Assembly (NCBI RefSeq): GCF_003688415.1
Contig: NZ_REFJ01000004.1
Span: forward strand, 186,001 to 250,000
Direction: 5' to 3'
Source of the DNA: Umboniibacter marinipuniceus
GTDB lineage: Bacteria; Pseudomonadota; Gammaproteobacteria; Pseudomonadales; DSM-25080
Length of the DNA: 64,000 nucleotides
Part shown: positions 3,005 through 47,015 of the stretch, one piece after another
Layout of the letters: every line of letters begins with the position of its first letter
Position numbering within the stretch: the stretch's first letter is position 1
The notes under the pieces: generated by a model
Told to the model about the DNA's origin: nothing
Database searches by the model: none
Seen by the model: only the letters and a program-made list of their open reading frames with translations
Position numbers and translations under genes: made by a program

Positions 3005-4168
3005 CTAACTCAACAGGCGATGCGGTTTATTGAGCGACCTCGAAGCCAAAGCCAAAACGCCCAACGCAAGGGCCACGGTAATTGCTACGCCGCCCCACGC
3101 CCACAGATCAAAGCTAGCATCTGCACTAAAGGAGGCTTTAATAATCTGCTGTTGAGACACGAAGGGTATTAACAGAAGTTCTTGTTCTATGACCTTGTCA
3201 CTCAAATCAATGGCCATCAAACCCACGAGCGGGGCTATCTGCAAAATCCCGAGTAGCGTTTGCGCTTCTTTAAAACTCTTGGCTTTCAGTGCCACCAGTA
3301 GCATGAGCGCGCCGGCAAACATGGCGACGGGCAGCAGTTGAAAACAAACCATTGCTAGCGCCGAATAGGAGACCTGCCAGCTGATGCCTAACTCCTGTAG
3401 CGGAAGCAATGACATCACCACACTTAATAACACCGCTGTCAGGGCGGCGCCAATCCAGCCAAATGCCGTGACAACACTCCACTTAGAACACATCAACAAC
3501 CAAGTTGAGGCGGGCTGAACGAGGAGCGGCTCTAGCGATAGTCGTTCACGCTCGCCCGAGGTGGTATCAATCGCCGTAGCCAGTGCACAGGCAAAGGCCG
3601 CAAAAATGATCATGCCGGGCATACTGCCCAGCACAATCGCTGCTCGACTACCGGGCTTTGCCGTATCCCTGCTAACAATAGCAATTGGCCTCATTGCAAC
3701 GGTCGGAACGCCAAACCCCGTCATTCGCTGCTGAGTAAGCTGCCGACTGAGCGCGCCGAGCTTTGCGCGAAGTTGACGAGCTGCCCCGTTGGAAGTTGAT
3801 TGGCTAGAGTTAAACCAGAGTTCTGAGGTAGCTGGGGAGAATTGAATTAGGTCTGACGAAAAATCTTCGTCAATGATGAGTACCGCATCGTATTCTTCGA
3901 GTAGCTCCTCGGGATTGTAGTTACCCGGTTCTAGCGCCTCAATTTGCATTCTCTCCCCGGCAAGATGGGGTAGCATATCCGGCGCCAAATGGCTGTTAAC
4001 CACTGCAACATCAAAGCTCGAACTCGACTCCTTCTCAATCAAGAAGCCGATCACCCCTCCCATCATGGCCGGCATCATTATTGGAATAATCAGCGCCATA
4101 GCGATGGATCGTTTATCTCTAATCGCCTCGAGCCATTCTTTTTTAATCGCGGAAAACCACTGAATCAT
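3005..4168 (-). CDS. ABC-2 type exporter permease (NatB-like)
   Basis: Membrane half of an ABC exporter. The 387-residue product starts with a cytoplasmic leader, a first membrane span (about 22-43), then a large extracytoplasmic domain (about 50-180), followed by five or so hydrophobic spans in the C-terminal half. This is the layout of the ABC-2/NatB group, which includes Na+ extrusion and drug exporters. Its ATG overlaps the TGA of the ATPase gene by 4 bases, so the two are translationally coupled and almost certainly form one complex. The transported substrate is not evident. Confidence 0.85.
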   Translation of the reverse strand: MIQWFSAIKKEWLEAIRDKRSIAMALIIPIMMPAMMGGVIGFLIEKESSSSFDVAVVNSHLAPDMLPHLAGERMQIEALEPGNYNPEELLEEYDAVLIIDEDFSSDLIQFSPATSELWFNSSQSTSNGAARQLRAKLGALSRQLTQQRMTGFGVPTVAMRPIAIVSRDTAKPGSRAAIVLGSMPGMIIFAAFACALATAIDTTSGERERLSLEPLLVQPASTWLLMCSKWSVVTAFGWIGAALTAVLLSVVMSLLPLQELGISWQVSYSALAMVCFQLLPVAMFAGALMLLVALKAKSFKEAQTLLGILQIAPLVGLMAIDLSDKVIEQELLLIPFVSQQQIIKASFSADASFDLWAWGGVAITVALALGVLALASRSLNKPHRLLS

Positions 4169-4893
4169 GCTAAGTCCTCCATTCCCGCAAGGCGAACAAA
4201 AGCGTCTTCGAGCCCCGTAACCTTAGCCTGCTCAATGAGCTCGGAGGTAGTGCCGTTCGCAACGATCGTGCCATCTGCCATGATTAATATTCGATCTGCC
4301 AACGCGTCGACCTCCTGCATTACATGACTAGAGAAAAGTAGTGCGCCACCTGCTTCTCGGTACCGGTTTAACACATCACGTAATAGCCTAACGCTGGGAA
4401 CATCCAACCCGCGCGTAGGTTCGTCGAGTACGAGTAACTTGGGGGCGTGTAACAACGCTCTCGCTAACGACACCTTCATTCTTTCGCCCTGCGAAAATCC
4501 TGCCGTTTTGCGATCTAACAGCGCCTCTAGTCTTAACATTTCCACAACGCGGTCAATTGCACTCGCACAGGCGCTACGATTTAAACCATGTAAGCCACCA
4601 AAGTAATTCAAATACTCACGAACACTCAGGCGTTCGTATAAACCTTCTCTATCACCGACCACTCCAATAAGACGACGAGCCTCAATGGGGTTAACCGCGG
4701 GGTCATAACCGTCAATACTGACACTGCCCCCGTCGCGATCGATTAGGCCGCATAGGATGCGTAGAGCTGTTGTCTTGCCCGCGCCATTGGCACCCAGGAG
4801 GGCTACTGATTCACCCTCAGCAACGTTAAACGTTGTGCCCTTAAGAACACGGGTCTTGGCAAAGGATTTGGTGACTTCCTGGTAGTTAATCAT
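4165..4893 (-). CDS. ABC exporter ATP-binding protein (NatA-like)
   Basis: Nucleotide-binding subunit that powers the adjacent permease. Walker A GANGAGKT lies at about residues 34-41, the ABC signature is FSQGERMKVSLARAL (degenerate SQGE rather than SGGQ, common in the NatA/CcmA group), Walker B is LLVLDEPTRGLD, and the switch His is in LFSSHVMQEV. Length 242 aa is usual for a stand-alone domain. It overlaps the upstream hydrolase gene by 8 bases and the downstream permease by 4, so the three are one operon. Confidence 0.9.
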   Translation of the reverse strand: MINYQEVTKSFAKTRVLKGTTFNVAEGESVALLGANGAGKTTALRILCGLIDRDGGSVSIDGYDPAVNPIEARRLIGVVGDREGLYERLSVREYLNYFGGLHGLNRSACASAIDRVVEMLRLEALLDRKTAGFSQGERMKVSLARALLHAPKLLVLDEPTRGLDVPSVRLLRDVLNRYREAGGALLFSSHVMQEVDALADRILIMADGTIVANGTTSELIEQAKVTGLEDAFVRLAGMEDLA

Positions 4894-6322
4894 TGTCTAA
4901 ACCTCCGCCCAGTTGAGATCCGAAGGCATTGGTCATAAACAATGGTGGCGGTAAGCCCTTCAGGCAGTCCGTATTAATTTCTTCATCCTTGGCTTCGAAA
5001 AAACGACCTATTTGCGTGGGCATACACCCACGCATTGAATTCATATGCCCGCCATAGGGCAACACAATTTCCAAGGCGTTTGCTAACCGTTGCGCGCTCA
5101 GCCCGGCATAGTTAGGTGGCGTCACAGGATCGAGTGCTCCTGATATCAGCAGCGTTGGATGATCCAACAGCGTTGGTTCGTCATACCCATAGGTTGCGGT
5201 GGGCCAGTGAGCGCATGCCAATTGCCAAAATTCCAGCCAAGACTGGCCAACGAACCCTTTGTTAAACTCTTCATCGAAGGCCGTTCTACTCACCCGCGGC
5301 AGCTCCTCAGAACATAAAACCGATAGTGTCAGACCAATATACATAGACTCTGCTGCGCTATTTTGGCTAGTACCCAGGCTAACAAGTGGCTGCCAATTGC
5401 CCCGCTGCGCCTGATCAACCACGTAAAACAGCTGACCAGAAATCTCTGGCATATATAACAAGCCGCGAATGACCTGGGCTACTTGACTGCGCGATAGCGT
5501 CTGCTGAACTTGCTCACCGCGCGCGGCATCAAATACGGAAATGGTAATGCCGTCCCCAACAGAGGCCAACAGCTGATTTAGTTGGGTAGTTGGATTTGGG
5601 AAACGTCGAAGACATTCATCATTAGCATGGCAAAGCAGAACGAGTTCATCCCATGCTCCCTGAGCTGCTTCAGCGGTTATTAAAACCGGCTGGCTAACTG
5701 GGGCCACGCCATCTAAGACCATACGATTCACTGAGTTGGGATATCGCTGTGCATAAAGTAGCGCGAAGCGAGTGCCCCAGCTCCCGCCCCACAAATTCAC
5801 AGTATCCGCTCCGATGAGGGTCCGAAGCGCTTCCAAGTCATCAATACTCGTTTGCGAATTGAGCTGGTCGAGTGGCCAGACTGATCTTTCGAAACAACGC
5901 TGTACTTCGTTGGCAATCTGCGCTTCCGTTACCACTGTTTCGTCCAGCTCGCACTGCCAAGGGTTACTTCTGCCCGTAGCACGACGATCAACGAAGTATA
6001 AATCATGGTACTGATTACTGGGGCCAAAAGCGGCGTCGATGAGCGAAACAAGCTCTGATGAAGCTTGGCCTGGGCCTCCCGCCAGCACGAAAATCGGCGG
6101 TTTGGTATCACCCAACTTCACCGCTGCCTTGCGAGTTACCGCTAGTACCGCACCATCATCAAGGCTTAGCTCTGCACAGCTTAGCTGCTTGGAATAGCCG
6201 TCGCGGAAACATGAAGACCACTCACTTAAACTAGCAGCCTCTGACAACGCAGAATAACTCAGTGCACTAATAAAAATAAACGTGGATAGAAAACGCAATG
6301 AAAGCTCCTTGCTCAGCACCAA
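4886..6322 (-). CDS. Exported alpha/beta hydrolase, S33 peptidase-like (tripeptidyl-aminopeptidase type)
   Basis: A secreted or periplasmic hydrolase. It has an N-terminal signal peptide (hydrophobic about 10-25, cleaved near SEAAS), the GGPG oxyanion-hole motif, nucleophile Ser181 in GGSWGT, and a C-terminal TAP-like region with the DPVTPP acid loop and GGHMNS histidine. These match the prolyl iminopeptidase/tripeptidyl aminopeptidase group. Several Cys residues in the mature part would allow disulphides. The gene overlaps the dCMP deaminase by 10 bases and the ABC ATPase by 8. A linked hydrolase plus ABC-2 exporter suggests processing or export of a peptide or similar compound, but this is inference. 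Confidence 0.82.
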   Translation of the reverse strand: MVLSKELSLRFLSTFIFISALSYSALSEAASLSEWSSCFRDGYSKQLSCAELSLDDGAVLAVTRKAAVKLGDTKPPIFVLAGGPGQASSELVSLIDAAFGPSNQYHDLYFVDRRATGRSNPWQCELDETVVTEAQIANEVQRCFERSVWPLDQLNSQTSIDDLEALRTLIGADTVNLWGGSWGTRFALLYAQRYPNSVNRMVLDGVAPVSQPVLITAEAAQGAWDELVLLCHANDECLRRFPNPTTQLNQLLASVGDGITISVFDAARGEQVQQTLSRSQVAQVIRGLLYMPEISGQLFYVVDQAQRGNWQPLVSLGTSQNSAAESMYIGLTLSVLCSEELPRVSRTAFDEEFNKGFVGQSWLEFWQLACAHWPTATYGYDEPTLLDHPTLLISGALDPVTPPNYAGLSAQRLANALEIVLPYGGHMNSMRGCMPTQIGRFFEAKDEEINTDCLKGLPPPLFMTNAFGSQLGGGLDND

Positions 6323-31032: not shown

Positions 31033-32292
31033 TTATTTGATGCGTTCTACGCGTGCTCCGAGCTGAGCAAATTTTGTTTCAATCGATTCATAACCACGGT
31101 CGATGTGATAAATACGATCGATTAAGGTTTCGCCGCTGGCTAATAAACCTGCGATGACTAAACTCGCCGACGCTCGCAAGTCCGTAGCCATCACTGGCGC
31201 TGCACTCAGTGATTCAACCCCAGTGACCTTAGCGGTATTTGACTCGAGCAGAATTTGAGCGCCCATTCGATTCATTTCTTGCGCTGCTACGAGGCGGTTT
31301 TCAAAGATAGTTTCAACTACCTCTGCAGTACCTTCCGCCACCGCATTCATCGCCAAAAATTGCGACTGCATATCGGTGGGAAACTCTGGATGAGGCGCGG
31401 TGACGAAGCTTACCGCCTTCGGCCGCTTGTTGTTCATAGTCAGATGGATGGTGGTGCCGTCTATCTGGATATCTGCCCCAGCTTCGCGCAGCTTGAATAA
31501 CACGACATCCATGGTTTCAGGTGCTGCATCTAGCAAGGTAATACTGCCACGTGTTGCGGCCGCAGCCACGAGAAAGGTTCCCGCCTCGATACGATCAGCA
31601 ACAACTCGATATTCACAGCCATGCAGCGCCTCAACGCCATCGATAACGAGCGTTTCGGTACCAATGCCACTCACCTGAGCACCCATCGCATTTAAGAAAT
31701 GGCACAGGTCGACGACTTCAGGTTCTCGTGCAGCATTACGAAGAATGGTTCGACCGTTAGCCAGCGTAGCAGCCATTACCAGATTTTCCGTGGCGCCAAC
31801 GGACACCACATCAAAATGAATATCCGCACCCTTCAAGCCCTGGGCGGGCGCCTCGGCAACAATATAGCCATCTCGGATATCAATCTTTGCACCCATAGCT
31901 TCGAATCCCTTAAGATGCAGATCTACAGGTCTGCTGCCGATTGCGCAGCCACCCGGGAAGGAAACTTCGGCCTTACCAAGACGCGCAAGCAGCGGCCCTA
32001 ACACCAGAATGCTTGCTCGCATGGTTTTTACCAGCTCATAGGGCGCGACTATTTTATCGACTGCTGTGGCATCCACTTTGGCGACATTCCCGTCCAACTC
32101 CACCCGAGCACCTAGGCACTCTATGAGCTTAGCAAGGGTTCGGATGTCATTTAACTGAGGAACGTTGCTTAAGGTCAGCGCGCCATTGGGCAGCAGTGCC
32201 GCAGCCATGATGGGCAACGCCGCATTTTTAGCTCCCGATACCGCTACTGTTCCCGCAATCTTTGTTGGTCCATAAACCTTAAACTTATCCAT
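31033..32292 (-). CDS. murA: UDP-N-acetylglucosamine 1-carboxyvinyltransferase
   Basis: First committed step of peptidoglycan synthesis: transfers enolpyruvate from PEP to UDP-GlcNAc, in the cytoplasm. The catalytic Cys116 is in [15 protein letters not shown], so the fosfomycin target residue is present. [16 protein letters not shown] and the C-terminal [16 protein letters not shown] are diagnostic. Length 419 aa equals E. coli MurA. It begins 3 bases after ibaG and leads into hisG. Confidence 0.97.
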
Positions 32293-32295
32293 AGT

Positions 32296-32538
32296 TCAGC
32301 CTTGTTTTGCAGCCCATTGTGCTGGTGTCAGCGCTTGAATATGCAGTGCATGAAGCGCACCGGAAGCAATGTGTTCATTCAAGCAAGCGTATACACTCTG
32401 CTGCTTTTTAACTGGTGTCATACCCGCAAAGCTCTCACTTACCACGCGAATTGAGTAATGACTGCCGTCACGACCTACGTCGACCTGCGCTTCAGGAAAA
32501 GCCGCCACGACGATTTCTTTAACTTGTTCTGCTTCCAT
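32296..32538 (-). CDS. ibaG: BolA family protein IbaG
   Basis: Small BolA-type protein (80 aa) thought to work with monothiol glutaredoxins in Fe-S or iron handling and acid stress. It has the class II KH-like fold pattern with DGSHYSIRVVSESFAGMTPVKKQQSVYACL and the conserved His in ALHALHIQALTP. The position directly before murA is the conserved gammaproteobacterial location. It lies 23 bases after mlaC; the mlaB gene usually found between them is absent. Confidence 0.92.
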   Translation of the reverse strand: MEAEQVKEIVVAAFPEAQVDVGRDGSHYSIRVVSESFAGMTPVKKQQSVYACLNEHIASGALHALHIQALTPAQWAAKQG

Positions 32539-32561
32539 AATATCCTCTGGTCTGGATAGGC

Positions 32562-33152
32562 TTATTGCCCCCAGTTATCGATTACCGCGTCAACGGAGTT
32601 GAACTCCGTCATCATTCGCGAAAATTGTTGATTGTAGGTCTGCCCTAAATTCACACCATTAACACGTAAATTCAACATGACCCAACGGCCGTCTGAACGC
32701 TGCCCCATAGTGTAGATAACGTTTAAACCGCCAGCGATCCCCTCGACAGTTTGTCGAACAGGCACTCTTCGCTCGCCAGCATAGCGCTCTTCTACCGGTA
32801 AGGTGGTGACGCGCTCGCCGTTATAGGCTAAAAAGCTTTTTGCATAGGTAGAAATCATGACCGACCTGAAACGACTTCCAAAGCGGGTGATCTGCTCGGG
32901 CGAGGCACCCTGACGATAACGCCCCATGATTTGGGCGGCAATCCAATCGAAGTCTGCGTAATAGGTCATTAATTGGTCTAGACGCGGCATAAAGCCATCT
33001 AGATCATTACCATTCTCCTTAGCTTCCATGACCACCTCAATGACGTCGTTAGTCATTTTGGCTACCGCTTCATCTGCCGACAGTTCTTCTGCCACTACGG
33101 TGTTAACCAACAGTGCACACAGTGCTAGTAATACAATTTGCAAACGCTTCAT
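32562..33152 (-). CDS. mlaC: MlaC periplasmic phospholipid-binding protein
   Basis: Shuttles phospholipids between the outer-membrane MlaA complex and the inner-membrane MlaFEDB transporter. Signal peptide at 1-21 (cut near VVAEE), then the Tol_Tol_Ttg2 fold: VMEAKENGNDLDGFMPRLDQLM, FDWIAAQIMGRYRQGASPEQ and the C-terminal DGRWVMLNLRVNGVNLGQTYNQQFSRMM, all typical. Length 196 aa is normal. The genes mlaF, mlaE and mlaD that usually precede it, and mlaB that usually follows, are missing; upstream is directly the divergent yrbG. Confidence 0.9.
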   Translation of the reverse strand: MKRLQIVLLALCALLVNTVVAEELSADEAVAKMTNDVIEVVMEAKENGNDLDGFMPRLDQLMTYYADFDWIAAQIMGRYRQGASPEQITRFGSRFRSVMISTYAKSFLAYNGERVTTLPVEERYAGERRVPVRQTVEGIAGGLNVIYTMGQRSDGRWVMLNLRVNGVNLGQTYNQQFSRMMTEFNSVDAVIDNWGQ

Positions 33153-33298
33153 AACTCAAGCTTCCTATCTCTGCTGATGCCATTCTACCGCTACTAGGGG
33201 TAAGTTCCAATGAAAGGGCACCGAATTCTACTGACATTAACTCGTTCTGAGTTTAAAATTACAAGTTCATCTAATCATACGTTGTAGTACCTGCTTTT

Positions 33299-34240
33299 AT
33301 GTCAACAGAAATCATCTATCAAACACTTGCCATCCTACTCGGTTTTGCCGGACTCATTTGGAGTGCAGACCGATTCGTAGCAAGCTCCGCTTCTATTGCC
33401 AAAAACCTAGGTATGTCAACCATGACCATTGGTTTAACCATTGTCTCCTTGGGCACGTCTGCGCCTGAGGTACTGGTCGCGCTAAGCGCGAGCCTGAGTG
33501 ACTCTGGAAGCCTCGCAATGGGTAATGCTTTAGGATCAAACGTGGCCAACATTGCGCTGGTGTTGGCCATTACCGCTATTGTTGCCCCCATTCCCATTGC
33601 GAAACAGTTATTCAAGATGGAAGCACCCTTTCTGGTGGGCGTTACCGCGCTCCTTGGGTTATTCATCTTTAACGGCGAGCTTAGCCGACTCGAGGGATTG
33701 ATTCTCCTGTTACTTATACCTGTTTTTCTCTGGCTGGTATCGCGAACTCAAACCGGGGTAGAACAAGAAGAAATTGAACGCAGCGAAGGGTTCAAGACGT
33801 TTGCCTGGTTTATCGTTAGTCTGGCCATTCTGATTGGCAGCGCCAATACACTGGTTTGGGGCGCTAAGGGCGTCGCGCTCACGCTGGGAGTCAGCGAGCT
33901 CCTTATTGGCTTGACGATTGTGGCGGTAGGGACCAGCCTCCCCGAACTTGCGGCGTCAGTCGCCAGTGCACTGAAAGGTCATCACGACATCGCACTCGGC
34001 AATATTATTGGCTCAAACATTTTTAATATCATCGCCGTAGCGAGCATTCCTGGCGTTGTCGGGCCATTGGCCATTGACCCAGATATTCTGTCACGTGACT
34101 ACTATGTCATGGCTGGCTTAACCGCGTTGCTTGTCATCGCCTGCGCACTCACATTGAAACGCCGCGGCAGTAAGCTAGGCAGAAGCTTTGGCGTGGTTAT
34201 GTTAAGCTCATTCTGTGCCTACTATTACTTTCTTGTTTAA
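33299..34240 (+). CDS. yrbG: Calcium/sodium antiporter YrbG
   Basis: Inner-membrane K+-dependent or independent Na+/Ca2+ exchanger (CaCA family). It has two inverted repeats of about five spans, each with the alpha motif: GLTIVSLGTSAPEVLVALSAS...GNALGSNVANIAL, and GLTIVAVGTSLPELAASVASA...GNIIGSNIFNIIAV, holding the ion-binding acids. Length 313 aa is usual. It is the first gene of the plus-strand LPS/rpoN cluster, 8 bases before kdsD, in its conserved position. Confidence 0.93.
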   Translation: MSTEIIYQTLAILLGFAGLIWSADRFVASSASIAKNLGMSTMTIGLTIVSLGTSAPEVLVALSASLSDSGSLAMGNALGSNVANIALVLAITAIVAPIPIAKQLFKMEAPFLVGVTALLGLFIFNGELSRLEGLILLLLIPVFLWLVSRTQTGVEQEEIERSEGFKTFAWFIVSLAILIGSANTLVWGAKGVALTLGVSELLIGLTIVAVGTSLPELAASVASALKGHHDIALGNIIGSNIFNIIAVASIPGVVGPLAIDPDILSRDYYVMAGLTALLVIACALTLKRRGSKLGRSFGVVMLSSFCAYYYFLV

Positions 34241-34248
34241 GGACGTTT

Positions 34249-35211
34249 ATGACCATTGATCACCTTGCCTCTGCAAAGCGAACCATAGACCTTGAAGCTA
34301 AAGCGGTTAGCGGCCTTCTGAGCCGTCTAAACAATAATTTCTCCACCGCCTGTGACATCGTGATGAACTGCTCCGGCCGAGTCATTGTGACTGGCATGGG
34401 CAAGTCTGGCCATATTGGTAAAAAAGTAGCGGCTACGCTCGCCTCAACGGGCACACCTGCCTTCTTTGTTCATCCCGCCGAAGCGAGCCACGGCGACTTG
34501 GGAATGATGACCGAAGACGATGTTGTCTTAGCGCTCAGTAATAGCGGCACAACTGCTGAAGTCGTTTCGCTACTGCCACTTATCAAGCGCCTTGGTATTA
34601 AGCTTATCAGTGTGACCGGCAACCTCTCTTCAACGCTATCGCTAGCGTCCGATGCACCACTGAATAGTGGCGTTGATACGGAAGCCTGCCCACTCAACCT
34701 GGCGCCAACCTCAAGCACTACGGCACAATTGGTCTTGGGTGACGCGCTAGCCATCGCGCTCCTGGAAGCTCGAGGCTTCAGCGCCGAGGACTTTGCTTTT
34801 TCTCATCCTGGCGGAGCACTGGGGCGAAAGCTTTTATTAAAAGTCAGCGATGTCATGCATGGTGACGACGACCTACCCGTCTGTTCACCCTCTACCTCCG
34901 TCCGCGATGCACTCTTTGAGATTACCAGCAAAGGCCTTGGTATGACCTTAGTGCTAGACAACGGGACGCTCAAAGGTATTTTCACCGATGGAGACCTCCG
35001 CCGCGCGATGGATCACTATGATCGCGTCATGCCGGTAGCGCTGTCGGAAGTCATGTCAACCGAATGCAAAACGGTTGGCCCGAACATGCTCGCGGCCGAG
35101 GCACTCGCACTCATGGAAGACTGGCAAATTACTAGCTTGGTGGTCACCGATAATAATGAAGTGGTGGGAGTGGTTCATCTGCATAATCTTCTCAAAGCAG
35201 GAGTCGCCTAA
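34249..35211 (+). CDS. kdsD: Arabinose-5-phosphate isomerase
   Basis: Makes D-arabinose 5-phosphate from ribulose 5-phosphate for Kdo synthesis. The SIS domain (about 30-180) has GMGKSGHIGKKVAATLASTGTPAFFVHPAEASHGDLGM with the catalytic His/Lys/Glu set, followed by two CBS domains (about 205-320). Length 320 aa is standard. An AAGGA ribosome-binding site precedes the ATG. Its stop overlaps the kdsC start as TAATG. Confidence 0.95.
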   Translation: MTIDHLASAKRTIDLEAKAVSGLLSRLNNNFSTACDIVMNCSGRVIVTGMGKSGHIGKKVAATLASTGTPAFFVHPAEASHGDLGMMTEDDVVLALSNSGTTAEVVSLLPLIKRLGIKLISVTGNLSSTLSLASDAPLNSGVDTEACPLNLAPTSSTTAQLVLGDALAIALLEARGFSAEDFAFSHPGGALGRKLLLKVSDVMHGDDDLPVCSPSTSVRDALFEITSKGLGMTLVLDNGTLKGIFTDGDLRRAMDHYDRVMPVALSEVMSTECKTVGPNMLAAEALALMEDWQITSLVVTDNNEVVGVVHLHNLLKAGVA

Positions 35212-43159: not shown

Positions 43160-43173
43160 CCCACTGCTATTTC
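43143..43173. terminator. Bidirectional terminator overlapping the yhdP stop
   Basis: Perfect 10-bp stem GAAATAGCAG / CTGCTATTTC with an 11-base loop, followed on the plus strand by TCTTCGTTTTT. The yhdP stop codon TAG lies within the right arm. It probably ends plus-strand transcription from darP; the minus-strand run after it is not T-rich. Confidence 0.6.
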
Positions 43174-46100
43174 TCTTCGTTTTTCCCAAAGAATCGTTCG
43201 AAACTGACATCGGGCTCGTCAATGGAACCACTCACTTTGTAACTGAGCGTGGAAAGCTGATCCATCTGTTCCTCAAACAGCTGCCCTGCCAAGAACACGC
43301 CCGCTGCGGCAGGTAAACTCACTGCGATGGCCGTAATCCAAGCCACATTATTGCCAACGGGTAAGGTTACATTTAAGCGCGAGTCAACGGTATTTTCATT
43401 CAAGTCAGCGGTGCCGGTCATAACGAATCGCGAGGATGGGCTATCAAGCTCTACGGGAGTGACAACACTTAAGTGGCCAACATCCAAAATAAACCGCCCC
43501 GATAGCTCATCAAAACTAATTCCACCCTTCTCCAAGTCCGAGAAGTCTAACTGGAGCCTTCTGGCCCAGGTATTAAAGTTAAATAGGTTAAACAATCTCA
43601 TCGCATCCGTACTCGCGGACGTGGTCTCTAGCTTTCCACGAGTAAGACTAAATTCAACATCGGCCGCAGCCGTGAGCAACTCAAAATCGAATGGGTTCCC
43701 GAACCAACTTGAACGCAGGGTCAGCTCAGATTGCTCTGCGGCAATGGGAATCGCCCAGTCCATTTCCTCACGTAGCTGCGCAAAGTTAGCCGTCTCCATG
43801 CGCAGGTTCATCGCCGTGGAATTACCCTCTTGACGTTCCCGCCACTCTATCCATAGCGGTCCGCTCGCGGAGGGTTCAACGGTCAAACCGCCATATTCAC
43901 CACTAATATCCTGCAAGCGGAAGCCATCATCCAAGCGCCTGGTATTGAATTCCCAGCGGCCGTAGTCCTGCCCATCTACGCTTAAATCATCTACTCGGGC
44001 GTTGAGCTCCGGAAGCCGGTGAAGCATCATTGGAGAGATTGCTTGCTGTCGACCACCTTGAGCACCACCACCGGAAGTATTTATGGCCGGGAGCTTAAGA
44101 TAGTCGAGGTTTAGCTCCCAAGGCTGATCACCGTCGGCAATACGTACGCCGCCCGAGAACTCGTTGGCACTGGCATCAAACTGCCAAGCCATAGACTCTC
44201 TGCTAGCAATGCCCTCCACTTCTGTTAACAGGATATCATCGGCCAAGCGCAACTGATTAGTTCGCGCCGCAGCCCCAATGGTCAACCCTGACACTGACTC
44301 CCCGCCGCCGCCAAAGTTGGTTTGCTTTCGCCCGAACCAGTCCAGAAAACGGTTAGGATCTAAATAATCAAGCTCTGCACTCAACCAGATATCAGCGCGG
44401 GGCTCGTGAAGCTCTGAGTCAAGTTTACCGAGGGAGATGATCAACTGCCGCAGCGATCCGCCAGCGATCTCCATCTTGCTCCGAAAATCATCGCGATAAT
44501 CAATCTGGACGGTGTAGCCGTTTTCGTAAAAGGGGATAGTAACTCTAAAGGGCGTCTCTTCTGCCGCGGTCTTTGACCAACGATCGGGTAGGTCAACCGC
44601 TACGCCTACTAGCTTGGACTCCACAATCACTCGCGGCGGCAACTCCTTGCGCAAACTAAAGCTACCGTTAAAATCGGTAGTGCCAACACCGAATAGATCC
44701 AGCGGCTGGCCCACCCAATCGGCCAACTCATTGATTGTGGCGCTCGTATTAAAGCCCAGAGACAAATTATCTAGATTACCGCTCAGCGTCAGTGCTAGGG
44801 GGTCACTGTAGAAGAAACCTTGAAGATCGGTGGATTCTAGGGAGTAAAGATCCGATTCCACACGTCCCGTTAAGTCCGCAATGGAAAGCCCTACGTCATC
44901 AATTCTCAGGTCAACGCCATTCAGCTCCGCATCAATTAATATCTCTGGCGTAGCGCCAGGCGACAGCTCGCTGCGAATACTTACCTCTGCGTCAACACCC
45001 CCGGTGAATTGCCAGCTACCGAGAGTCCCTGCAATATTATCCCATACCGGAGTTTGTTGGAATGCACCGATAATTTCACCACTCTCTCCAGCAGTAAGCA
45101 CATCAACCTCTAGCGCCATTACCCCACGGTGGTTCGGTTCTAAGTAGACTTTCTCAACCACTAGGTTTCCACCTAAGTAGGAAAGAGGCTGGATATCCGC
45201 GGTCACTACGGAATTATCGAGGATGACTCTTCCATTTACTCCGTTAATAGCAGGCCAGCCGTCCAGGTAGTTCAATGTCGCGTTCTGTGCGTCTACCTTG
45301 AGTTGCACAACATTACAGCTTGAACAGTCGTTACCCAATTCAGCGAGCATCACAAAATCCGCCTCGGCAATGTCTCCTGCTACCAGCGCACTGTCCAGCC
45401 AATCTCTTAAGCCGGGCGAAACGATAAAGGGCACAAGTCGCTCATGCCAGACTACCTGAGAGTGGTCCAAACCAATCTGTAAGGTCAGCTTACTGGTCAC
45501 ATTCTCAACAGGCTTAGTGAGCCCATCTAGATAAAAGGCGCCAGACATTACCCCCATTGGCCCAAGCATTTGCAGGTCACTTGCCCCAACCTGTACTCGA
45601 TCAATACTGGTATCGACTTGCCAAAATACACGCCCTGAAGCTTGATCCGTTTCAAACGCTGCATCATAGATAGTTGGGAAAGCCATGGTAAAATTAGTAG
45701 CGCGGATGTCTACATAGCCACTCAGCGCCGTGGCAACCAGGCTCCCTGAAAGGTTAGTGACGGCAGGAGCCCCTCCCCACGCCTCGACGTTGACCACATC
45801 AAGCTCGGCGCTGAAAGCGGTATCCATTAGCGAGGCGAAAGGCAGCTTAACTGACACATCTCGAAGCGTACCAGTGGGGTTAAGTGTGGCGAATACCTCA
45901 GTCAACTTACTCGACGGCAACCTCGCAATCGCTTTAGCGGTATCAGCTAAATTGACCCTGGGAATATCAACCTGAATAAATGCACCCGGCCCCGTAAGCT
46001 CGCCTTCAACCAAGATAGCAGGTAACGTATAGGCGTCCTCGTTTAAATGAAAGGCCGCATTCTCCACTAGGAGCCGGCTGACTCGCTGGCCATCCCACTG

Positions 46101-47015
46101 CATCGCAAGATCAGCTCGAACAGTATGAAGGCTAAACTGCTCCCAGCTGGCGGGTAGCGGAATATAGCTAAACGACATTTCGCCCTGAGCTCGAACTTGA
46201 TCGATGGAGTCCCAATCTACCCAAAGCTGTCCGCCAATAGCCAAATCTTCAGTCAGATTCAGTTCACCCGAAAAGATACGTGATTCCAGAGCAAGCGCCT
46301 TGACGTCATCATCAATGACCTGATTGCGGATATCAAGATAGGCCTCTCCATCGAACTTGGGTGACCAAGGAAGTCCTTCAAAGTCCGCGAGAAAGCTGAC
46401 CTGCCGAGCTAAACGCCCTACTAATAACTCAGCCTCTATGGTATTCCCTGTGCGGTGAGCTTGAATATCGGCAACGGCTATCACCAACGGCAGCTCAACG
46501 TTATTTCGGGTAATAAGCCTGATGGTCGAATCTCGCAACGTTAACGACTTGGCACGAAACAGACTATTTAGAAACTGTTTCACATCCGCGCCTTCGGTTG
46601 AACCACCACTATCCGCAGAAAACCAAAGGCCGTCAGTACGTTGCTGCAGAGAGAAGTCGAGCCCCGAAATCTCGCCACTGCGCGTTGTTAAGGCGCCATT
46701 CCAGAGCGAACTCAGTAAATCAATTTGGAGAAACAAACGCTCGAAAGTGGCTATAATATTGCCGTCGCGATCTACGACTTGGACGCCTCTTATCTCAATC
46801 TCCGGCGCCAAGCCAGGCCAATCTGCGGAGAGTGAGTCACTTTGGACCTGCAATCCTGTGATGGCTGAGAGGTAGCCATCGAATTCCGCTCGGTACTTAG
46901 CGGCATTCGGAGTTAATTCACGCGCAAGGCTTATCACAATGGCACAGATAACCAGCAAACTTAATAAAGTCCACCAAAAGGCGGTGATAAGAAAAGGAAC
47001 GATGCGCTTCGTCAT
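43167..47015 (-). CDS. yhdP: YhdP family AsmA-like protein (DUF3971)
   Basis: Very large (1282 aa) envelope protein of the AsmA/VPS13-like group, thought to form a periplasmic bridge carrying phospholipid to the outer membrane. One N-terminal span (about 10-30) anchors it; the rest is repeated beta-strand segments, with the DUF3971 block in the middle and the AsmA-like C-terminal block (about 1000-1260, with DLNENTVDSRLNVTLPVG). Length compares with 1266 aa in E. coli. A small C-terminal segment (about 1225-1250) is again hydrophobic. It overlaps rng by 4 bases. Confidence 0.92.
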   Translation of the reverse strand: MTKRIVPFLITAFWWTLLSLLVICAIVISLARELTPNAAKYRAEFDGYLSAITGLQVQSDSLSADWPGLAPEIEIRGVQVVDRDGNIIATFERLFLQIDLLSSLWNGALTTRSGEISGLDFSLQQRTDGLWFSADSGGSTEGADVKQFLNSLFRAKSLTLRDSTIRLITRNNVELPLVIAVADIQAHRTGNTIEAELLVGRLARQVSFLADFEGLPWSPKFDGEAYLDIRNQVIDDDVKALALESRIFSGELNLTEDLAIGGQLWVDWDSIDQVRAQGEMSFSYIPLPASWEQFSLHTVRADLAMQWDGQRVSRLLVENAAFHLNEDAYTLPAILVEGELTGPGAFIQVDIPRVNLADTAKAIARLPSSKLTEVFATLNPTGTLRDVSVKLPFASLMDTAFSAELDVVNVEAWGGAPAVTNLSGSLVATALSGYVDIRATNFTMAFPTIYDAAFETDQASGRVFWQVDTSIDRVQVGASDLQMLGPMGVMSGAFYLDGLTKPVENVTSKLTLQIGLDHSQVVWHERLVPFIVSPGLRDWLDSALVAGDIAEADFVMLAELGNDCSSCNVVQLKVDAQNATLNYLDGWPAINGVNGRVILDNSVVTADIQPLSYLGGNLVVEKVYLEPNHRGVMALEVDVLTAGESGEIIGAFQQTPVWDNIAGTLGSWQFTGGVDAEVSIRSELSPGATPEILIDAELNGVDLRIDDVGLSIADLTGRVESDLYSLESTDLQGFFYSDPLALTLSGNLDNLSLGFNTSATINELADWVGQPLDLFGVGTTDFNGSFSLRKELPPRVIVESKLVGVAVDLPDRWSKTAAEETPFRVTIPFYENGYTVQIDYRDDFRSKMEIAGGSLRQLIISLGKLDSELHEPRADIWLSAELDYLDPNRFLDWFGRKQTNFGGGGESVSGLTIGAAARTNQLRLADDILLTEVEGIASRESMAWQFDASANEFSGGVRIADGDQPWELNLDYLKLPAINTSGGGAQGGRQQAISPMMLHRLPELNARVDDLSVDGQDYGRWEFNTRRLDDGFRLQDISGEYGGLTVEPSASGPLWIEWRERQEGNSTAMNLRMETANFAQLREEMDWAIPIAAEQSELTLRSSWFGNPFDFELLTAAADVEFSLTRGKLETTSASTDAMRLFNLFNFNTWARRLQLDFSDLEKGGISFDELSGRFILDVGHLSVVTPVELDSPSSRFVMTGTADLNENTVDSRLNVTLPVGNNVAWITAIAVSLPAAAGVFLAGQLFEEQMDQLSTLSYKVSGSIDEPDVSFERFFGKNEEK

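Follow-up and report, generated by a model that had tools for sequence, protein, structure and literature searches.

The Mla pathway of E. coli and Pseudomonas has six components, the MlaA-OmpC/F pair, MlaC and the MlaFEDB complex. The Umboniibacter marinipuniceus genome resembles this system in having MlaA and MlaC, with mlaC at the same chromosomal place, an acidic MlaA tail and a predicted Ttg2D-like MlaC fold. It differs in that MlaD and MlaE are absent from the genome, and mlaF and mlaB from the locus. Part-sets of Mla have been treated as working systems before. In Veillonella parvula, MlaEFD is described without MlaA and MlaC (PMC10665443), which makes the arrangement described here, MlaA and MlaC without MlaED, its mirror image. 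The same work surveyed 1083 genomes with the four Pfam models that we use, and takes MlaEFD to be the ancestral core, to which MlaABC were added later; its text covers the reverse case and is silent on MlaA and MlaC without MlaDEF, and its supplementary table may hold some (PMC10665443). Ttg2D of P. putida and P. aeruginosa (5uwb, 4fcz, 6hsy), the best match to our MlaC by both sequence and fold, is described as belonging to an ABC system (PMC8035174), whereas no ABC partner was found for the MlaC studied here. The AsmA-like bridges YhdP, TamB and YdbH offer a possible inter-membrane lipid route and are described as a redundant set that is essential in lipid homeostasis (PMC8593681). Genes for YhdP and TamB are present here, the former within the window, but these bridges have no known link to MlaC. 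A literature search that did not extend to subscription papers and outside preprints returned no report of MlaA and MlaC without MlaFEDB.

The window is a stretch of 64,000 nucleotides from U. marinipuniceus. The earlier note on this DNA held that mlaC is retained without mlaF, mlaE, mlaD or mlaB at their usual place, and this stands: relatives and E. coli carry the missing genes exactly there (Table 1). Beyond ibaG and murA the order continues with hisG-hisD-hisC, and beyond yrbG with kdsD and lpt genes. The layout of the mlaC-ibaG locus is identical in both congeners, and E. coli K-12 has the full mla cluster within the same frame of neighbors. Because the full cluster occupies this place in relatives and in E. 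coli K-12, what we see is a conserved locus in deleted form rather than a stray gene.

Table 1. Features of the mlaC locus and of a candidate partner gene in the window.
Feature	Position	Strand	Description	Evidence
mlaC	32562..33152	-	196 aa, N-terminal signal-like segment; periplasmic phospholipid-binding family	PF05494
Gap mlaC/yrbG, 146 bp	33153..33298		Where relatives carry mlaF-mlaE-mlaD	No remnant by tblastn
Gap mlaC/ibaG, 23 bp	32539..32561		Position of mlaB in relatives	Sequence, relatives' loci
ibaG	32296..32538	-	BolA family; conserved neighbor	PF01722 E 2.3e-15
murA	31033..32292	-	Conserved neighbor	PF00275 E 2.7e-111
yrbG	33299..34240	+	Na/Ca exchanger family; divergent conserved neighbor	PF01699 E 5e-64
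kdsD	34249..35211	+	Conserved neighbor, far side	ORF; named by similarity and order as in E. coli yrbG-kdsD
yhdP	43167..47015	-	AsmA-like bridge protein; candidate lipid partner	PF13116 E 7.9e-165

The genome (2.69 Mb in 16 contigs, completeness 99.42%) was searched as a whole with profile models. Neither the MCE domain (PF02470) nor MlaE (PF02405) gave any match, and each was likewise absent from all three genomes of the family, which belong to one genus; the same two models do find matches in control genomes (4 of 14, including E. coli). MlaC and MlaA are each present in one copy, the MlaA match lying at G000:C5:233178-233747 (E 2.8e-70). Judged by the MCE domain, the genome holds no Pqi or Let transporter. 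With MlaE and MCE proteins both missing, no transporter of the MlaFEDB, Pqi or Let type is visible to these models. Because the families of MlaF and MlaB are generic ones, the absence of these two holds for the window and the loci rather than genome-wide. The suggestion in the earlier note that MlaC depends on a transporter elsewhere thus finds no support in a genome that has neither MlaE nor any MCE-domain protein, but the note is right that MlaC must then have some other partner. The search for MlaD (none), MlaE (none) and mlaA (one) that the note called for also excludes the case that would have spoken against its reading, a full set elsewhere with its own mlaC: zero MCE, zero MlaE and one MlaC rule out a complete Mla set elsewhere in the genome, and the single MlaC rules out a paralogue of a second copy.

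MlaF, MlaE, MlaD and MlaB, each taken from G230, G037 and E. coli, were used as tblastn queries against the window. They hit only LptB, an ABC ATPase at 4165-4893 and chance matches (E 0.18 or worse), and there was no mla remnant in the gaps. On a positive control, a full cluster from G230 (L102), MlaF, MlaE and MlaD were recovered with all or most references, while MlaB was recovered only by its own sequence, so the tblastn search is insensitive for MlaB; the mlaC-ibaG gap of 23 bp, though, is too short to hold mlaB in its usual position. We considered the ATPase at 4165-4893 as a stray MlaF and rejected it, given an adjoining ABC-2-like permease and an identity to MlaF of ~27-30%, the same as for LptB.

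The retained MlaC is a regular member of its family (PF05494, E 5e-33, 114.7 bits against a curated cut-off of 26), and its best sequence matches in the PDB are the Ttg2D proteins of the two Pseudomonas species. An AlphaFold2 model built with 19 aligned relatives has a mean pLDDT of 90.3. When this model was compared with the PDB by Foldseek, the best match was lipid-bound Ttg2D (5uwb; E 2.5e-13, TM 0.79, rmsd 2.0, 29% identity), and all 11 matches at E <= 0.001 were MlaC/Ttg2D or related phospholipid-binding proteins, with MlaC from the solved MlaCD complex (8ojg) at rank 10. We infer that the protein would still bind lipid.

MlaC is also kept under selection, with a constraint like that of its neighbors. 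Between U. marinipuniceus and the congener G002, dN/dS for mlaC is 0.028 (NG86) or 0.048 (YN00), compared with 0.024-0.042 for kdsD, 0.048-0.049 for yrbG, 0.014-0.017 for hisG and 0.076-0.109 for lptA; values were saturated for murA and for every pair with the more distant congener, G001. As a second measure, the MlaC distance was divided by the distance of six housekeeping proteins for pairs of genomes, binned by housekeeping p-distance. The bin medians with and without mlaFED were 2.48 and 2.41, 1.95 (three pairs) and 2.52, 3.63 and 3.06, 3.10 and 3.05, and 2.25 and 2.71. The relative rate therefore shows no consistent rise without mlaFED, being higher in two of five bins, with the limits that the pairs are non-independent and the larger distances near saturation.

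MlaD and MlaA share a cleft on MlaC in the published work (PMC10245069; PMC11289387). Most E. coli residues at which a change weakens MlaD binding are different in the window MlaC, which carries W for Y72, Q for L76, R for Y82, R for I130, N for R147, G for R153 and T for R186, and many relatives that have MlaD also diverge at these positions. A comparison of 23 MlaC with mlaFED and 56 without gave no clear pattern of a MlaD-binding face relaxed after MlaD loss, and we give this idea no weight. The comparison is uninformative because the cleft also binds MlaA and because the E. coli residues vary even where MlaD is present.

On the MlaA side, acidic residues outnumber basic ones in the C-terminal tail (the part beyond E. 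coli position 205) in all 20 loci read, 18 of them from MlaE-negative genomes, and the tail mostly ends with a DDF-like acidic stretch; the E. coli tail has 10 acidic and 4 basic residues. Published E. coli experiments describe the acidic tail as binding or recruiting MlaC, and show that truncations and point changes in it eliminate function and weaken or eliminate binding (PMC10245069; PMC10719372). By its sequence, the MlaA face toward MlaC seems to be kept. The tail is long in Umboniibacter, with 118 residues in U. marinipuniceus and 107 in G002, against 29-48 in the other relatives read, and the acidic stretch is followed by tandem GESYGGESYGG-like repeats (e.g., L144:4957-6051).

In E. 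coli, MlaA is a lipoprotein that works with porins. In both congeners read, a porin gene lies directly upstream of mlaA on the same strand, ~153 bp away (L144:3820-4803 and 4957-6051 in U. marinipuniceus, where the porin matches Porin_4; L145:6313-7296 and 5077-6159 in G002). With the E. coli partnership in mind, this adjacency means that a functional pair may exist. A simple lipobox pattern was found in the MlaA of 4 of 38 MlaE-negative and 7 of 22 MlaE-positive genomes and was not recognized in the remaining 34 and 15 (L144-L163, L245-L284), so the anchoring of MlaA in this order may differ from that in E. coli. Since the missing lipobox is common both with and without MlaE, we rejected the idea that MlaA lost its lipid anchor specifically because the transporter was lost.

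The same 244 genomes of the order were searched with all four models, which matched in 173 (MCE), 226 (MlaC), 137 (MlaE) and 223 (MlaA). MlaC is present in all 137 genomes with MlaE. It occurs without MlaE in 89 of the 244, of which 85 keep MlaA, and without MlaE or any MCE protein in 54, of which 50 keep MlaA. One of the 226 MlaC genomes, G128, falls below the curated cut-off, and dropping it moves one genome from MlaC only to neither. Some genomes counted as MlaE-positive carry, as their sole MlaE, a longer version situated away from the mla locus (e.g., G042, G157, G220, G045, G223), so the number lacking a transporter at that locus is higher than 89. MlaC and MlaA come and go together in the order: across the 244 genomes, 219 have both, 7 MlaC only, 4 MlaA only and 14 neither, and across the 107 without MlaE the corresponding counts are 85, 4, 4 and 14 (Fisher odds ratio 74, p 6.5e-11, with descent ignored). 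Neither the retention of MlaA nor the commonness of the arrangement in the order was foreseen in the earlier note.

Several other arrangements were seen. In G035 (L133) and G222 (L121), mlaC stands alone at ibaG, and another contig carries MlaE and MlaD, each of the usual size, a split that may be a step toward loss. In the loci L108-L112 (family f39) and L116 and L117 (f29), all from MlaE-positive genomes, the MlaC matches lie away from the ibaG locus and, judging by their coordinates, also from MlaE and MlaD, and may represent another MlaC subfamily. Six near-complete genomes of family f36 (G073, G153, G174, G195, G215, G235) lack MCE, MlaE, MlaC and MlaA, while its members G037 and G101 have all four, pointing to loss of the whole pathway in the six.

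Mapping the deletion across relatives, as the note had proposed, bore out its view of the locus. We examined 100 stretches around MlaC matches in the order, one of them a stub. The 99 usable loci were a non-random choice (the first 59 mainly from genomes that lack MlaE or carry it elsewhere, the remaining 40 from MlaE-positive ones); 56 have mlaC beside ibaG with no mlaFED or mlaB recognized, 24 have the full mlaFED-mlaC-(mlaB)-ibaG cluster, with mlaB recognized in 21, and 19 have the MlaC match at another place. By the whole-genome counts, the arrangement is common in the order and no local oddity. A scan for named loci with the window MurA matched more than the 80 that were then classed by ORF similarity. 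Of these 80, 56 carry MlaE and MlaD near murA, 10 lack mlaC at that place and 2 stop short of it. The other 12 were first classed as mlaC-ibaG only, but 2 of them run into a contig edge and do have MlaD, leaving 10. These 10, which are evidence at the level of the locus and not of whole genomes, include Luminiphilus syltensis NOR5-1B, Sessilibacter corallicola, Cellvibrionaceae bacterium AOL6, a Porticoccaceae MAG, a Saccharophagus MAG and Alteromonadaceae bacterium Bs31. NCBI taxonomy places Luminiphilus in Halieaceae and Sessilibacter in Cellvibrionaceae, both in Cellvibrionales.

In a sample of 143 genomes from the wider class, 126 have MlaE and 129 have MlaC. MlaE occurs without MlaC in 9, and MlaC without MlaE in 12, one of which is the U. 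marinipuniceus genome. Of the 127 MlaC-bearing genomes among the 141 that lie outside the order, 11 lack MlaE, so MlaC without MlaE is found far more often in this order than in the rest of the class.

The state of the locus was mapped on trees built from six neighboring proteins, giving 8 changes on a 78-row tree and 7 on 75-row trees from which three rows of family f40, one of them long-branched, were left out; many deep branches of these locus trees are weak. An AU test did not reject a tree with all 55 deleted-form rows on one side of a branch (p 0.093). Several losses appear likely by eye, and a single ancient loss is compatible with the AU test. Because a single ancient loss is not rejected, retention of mlaC after loss may count as few events.

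With a little more confidence than doubt, we propose that mlaFEDB was deleted while mlaC and mlaA were kept under selection, and that MlaA and MlaC form a self-standing phospholipid module of the outer membrane and periplasm. In this proposal, mlaF, mlaE, mlaD and mlaB would have been deleted from the mla operon, with mlaC left in place and mlaA elsewhere in the genome. In the E. coli model MlaFEDB is needed to empty MlaC, which counts against a pump-free module; here, MlaA and MlaC probably do without that pump. The MlaA-porin pair would load MlaC with no use of ATP, in the manner of the spontaneous transfer considered for E. coli (PMC10719372); both the binding of MlaC to MlaA and the direction of transfer are inferred. 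MlaC would then unload to a non-MCE acceptor, which could be an AsmA-like bridge (TamB or YhdP), the membrane directly, or an enzyme. Naming TamB or YhdP, the latter already suggested in the earlier note, is a guess. Both proteins are ordinary in bacteria that have Mla as well. A broader version, in which the order widely runs an MCE-free and ATP-free Mla, with MlaA-porin loading MlaC downhill and MlaC unloading to TamB/YhdP or the membrane, is one that we hold tentatively and consider rather unlikely.

The pathway could instead still be driven by ATP, if some other inner-membrane transporter that the MCE and MlaE models miss had replaced MlaFEDB. Full retention of MlaC and MlaA is easiest to understand if the whole route was kept, E. 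coli MlaC is described as handing on to an ABC complex (PMC11289387), and generic ABC proteins do occur, for example at 3005-4893 in the window. That pair is an ABC-2 exporter by eye with no link to MlaC, however, and there is no candidate gene beside mlaC in the deleted loci, where the same yrbG/kdsD and ibaG-murA neighbors close the gap in nearly all 56; we regard replacement as unlikely. We find it distinctly unlikely that MlaC has moved to another lipid-binding job without MlaA, for instance as a periplasmic chaperone for some other lipid or lipoprotein. Its stay at ibaG-murA while its operon partners were lost fits such a job, as do the four genomes that have MlaC without MlaE or MlaA (one of them the sub-threshold G128), but the strong joint presence and absence of the two proteins in MlaE-less genomes and the acidic tail kept by MlaA argue for a continued partnership.

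That the transporter is present and was missed, through an assembly gap or a weak profile, is very improbable. The genome is in 16 contigs and the search for MlaF and MlaB covered the window and the loci, yet the locus itself is continuous without the genes in a nearly complete assembly, both congeners also lack MCE and MlaE, the models match control genomes, and 54 MlaC-bearing genomes of the order share the double absence. We give almost no credence to MlaC as a decaying leftover of a lost operon: the transporter genes are indeed gone, but the low dN/dS (0.028-0.048), a relative rate like that of MlaC with a transporter and the intact ORFs in the 56 deleted-form loci from many families mean that constraint on MlaC already refutes decay.

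In the terms of the published survey, it is the later additions MlaA and MlaC that outlast the core here, in 85 of the 244 genomes sampled. If they work alone, the role of ATP in MlaFEDB and the direction of lipid movement become testable in a natural species that was never mutated. If the ATP-free reading is true, MlaA and MlaC would be the core of the pathway and MlaFEDB a dispensable motor, a reading that fits the E. coli work on spontaneous transfer from MlaA to MlaC.
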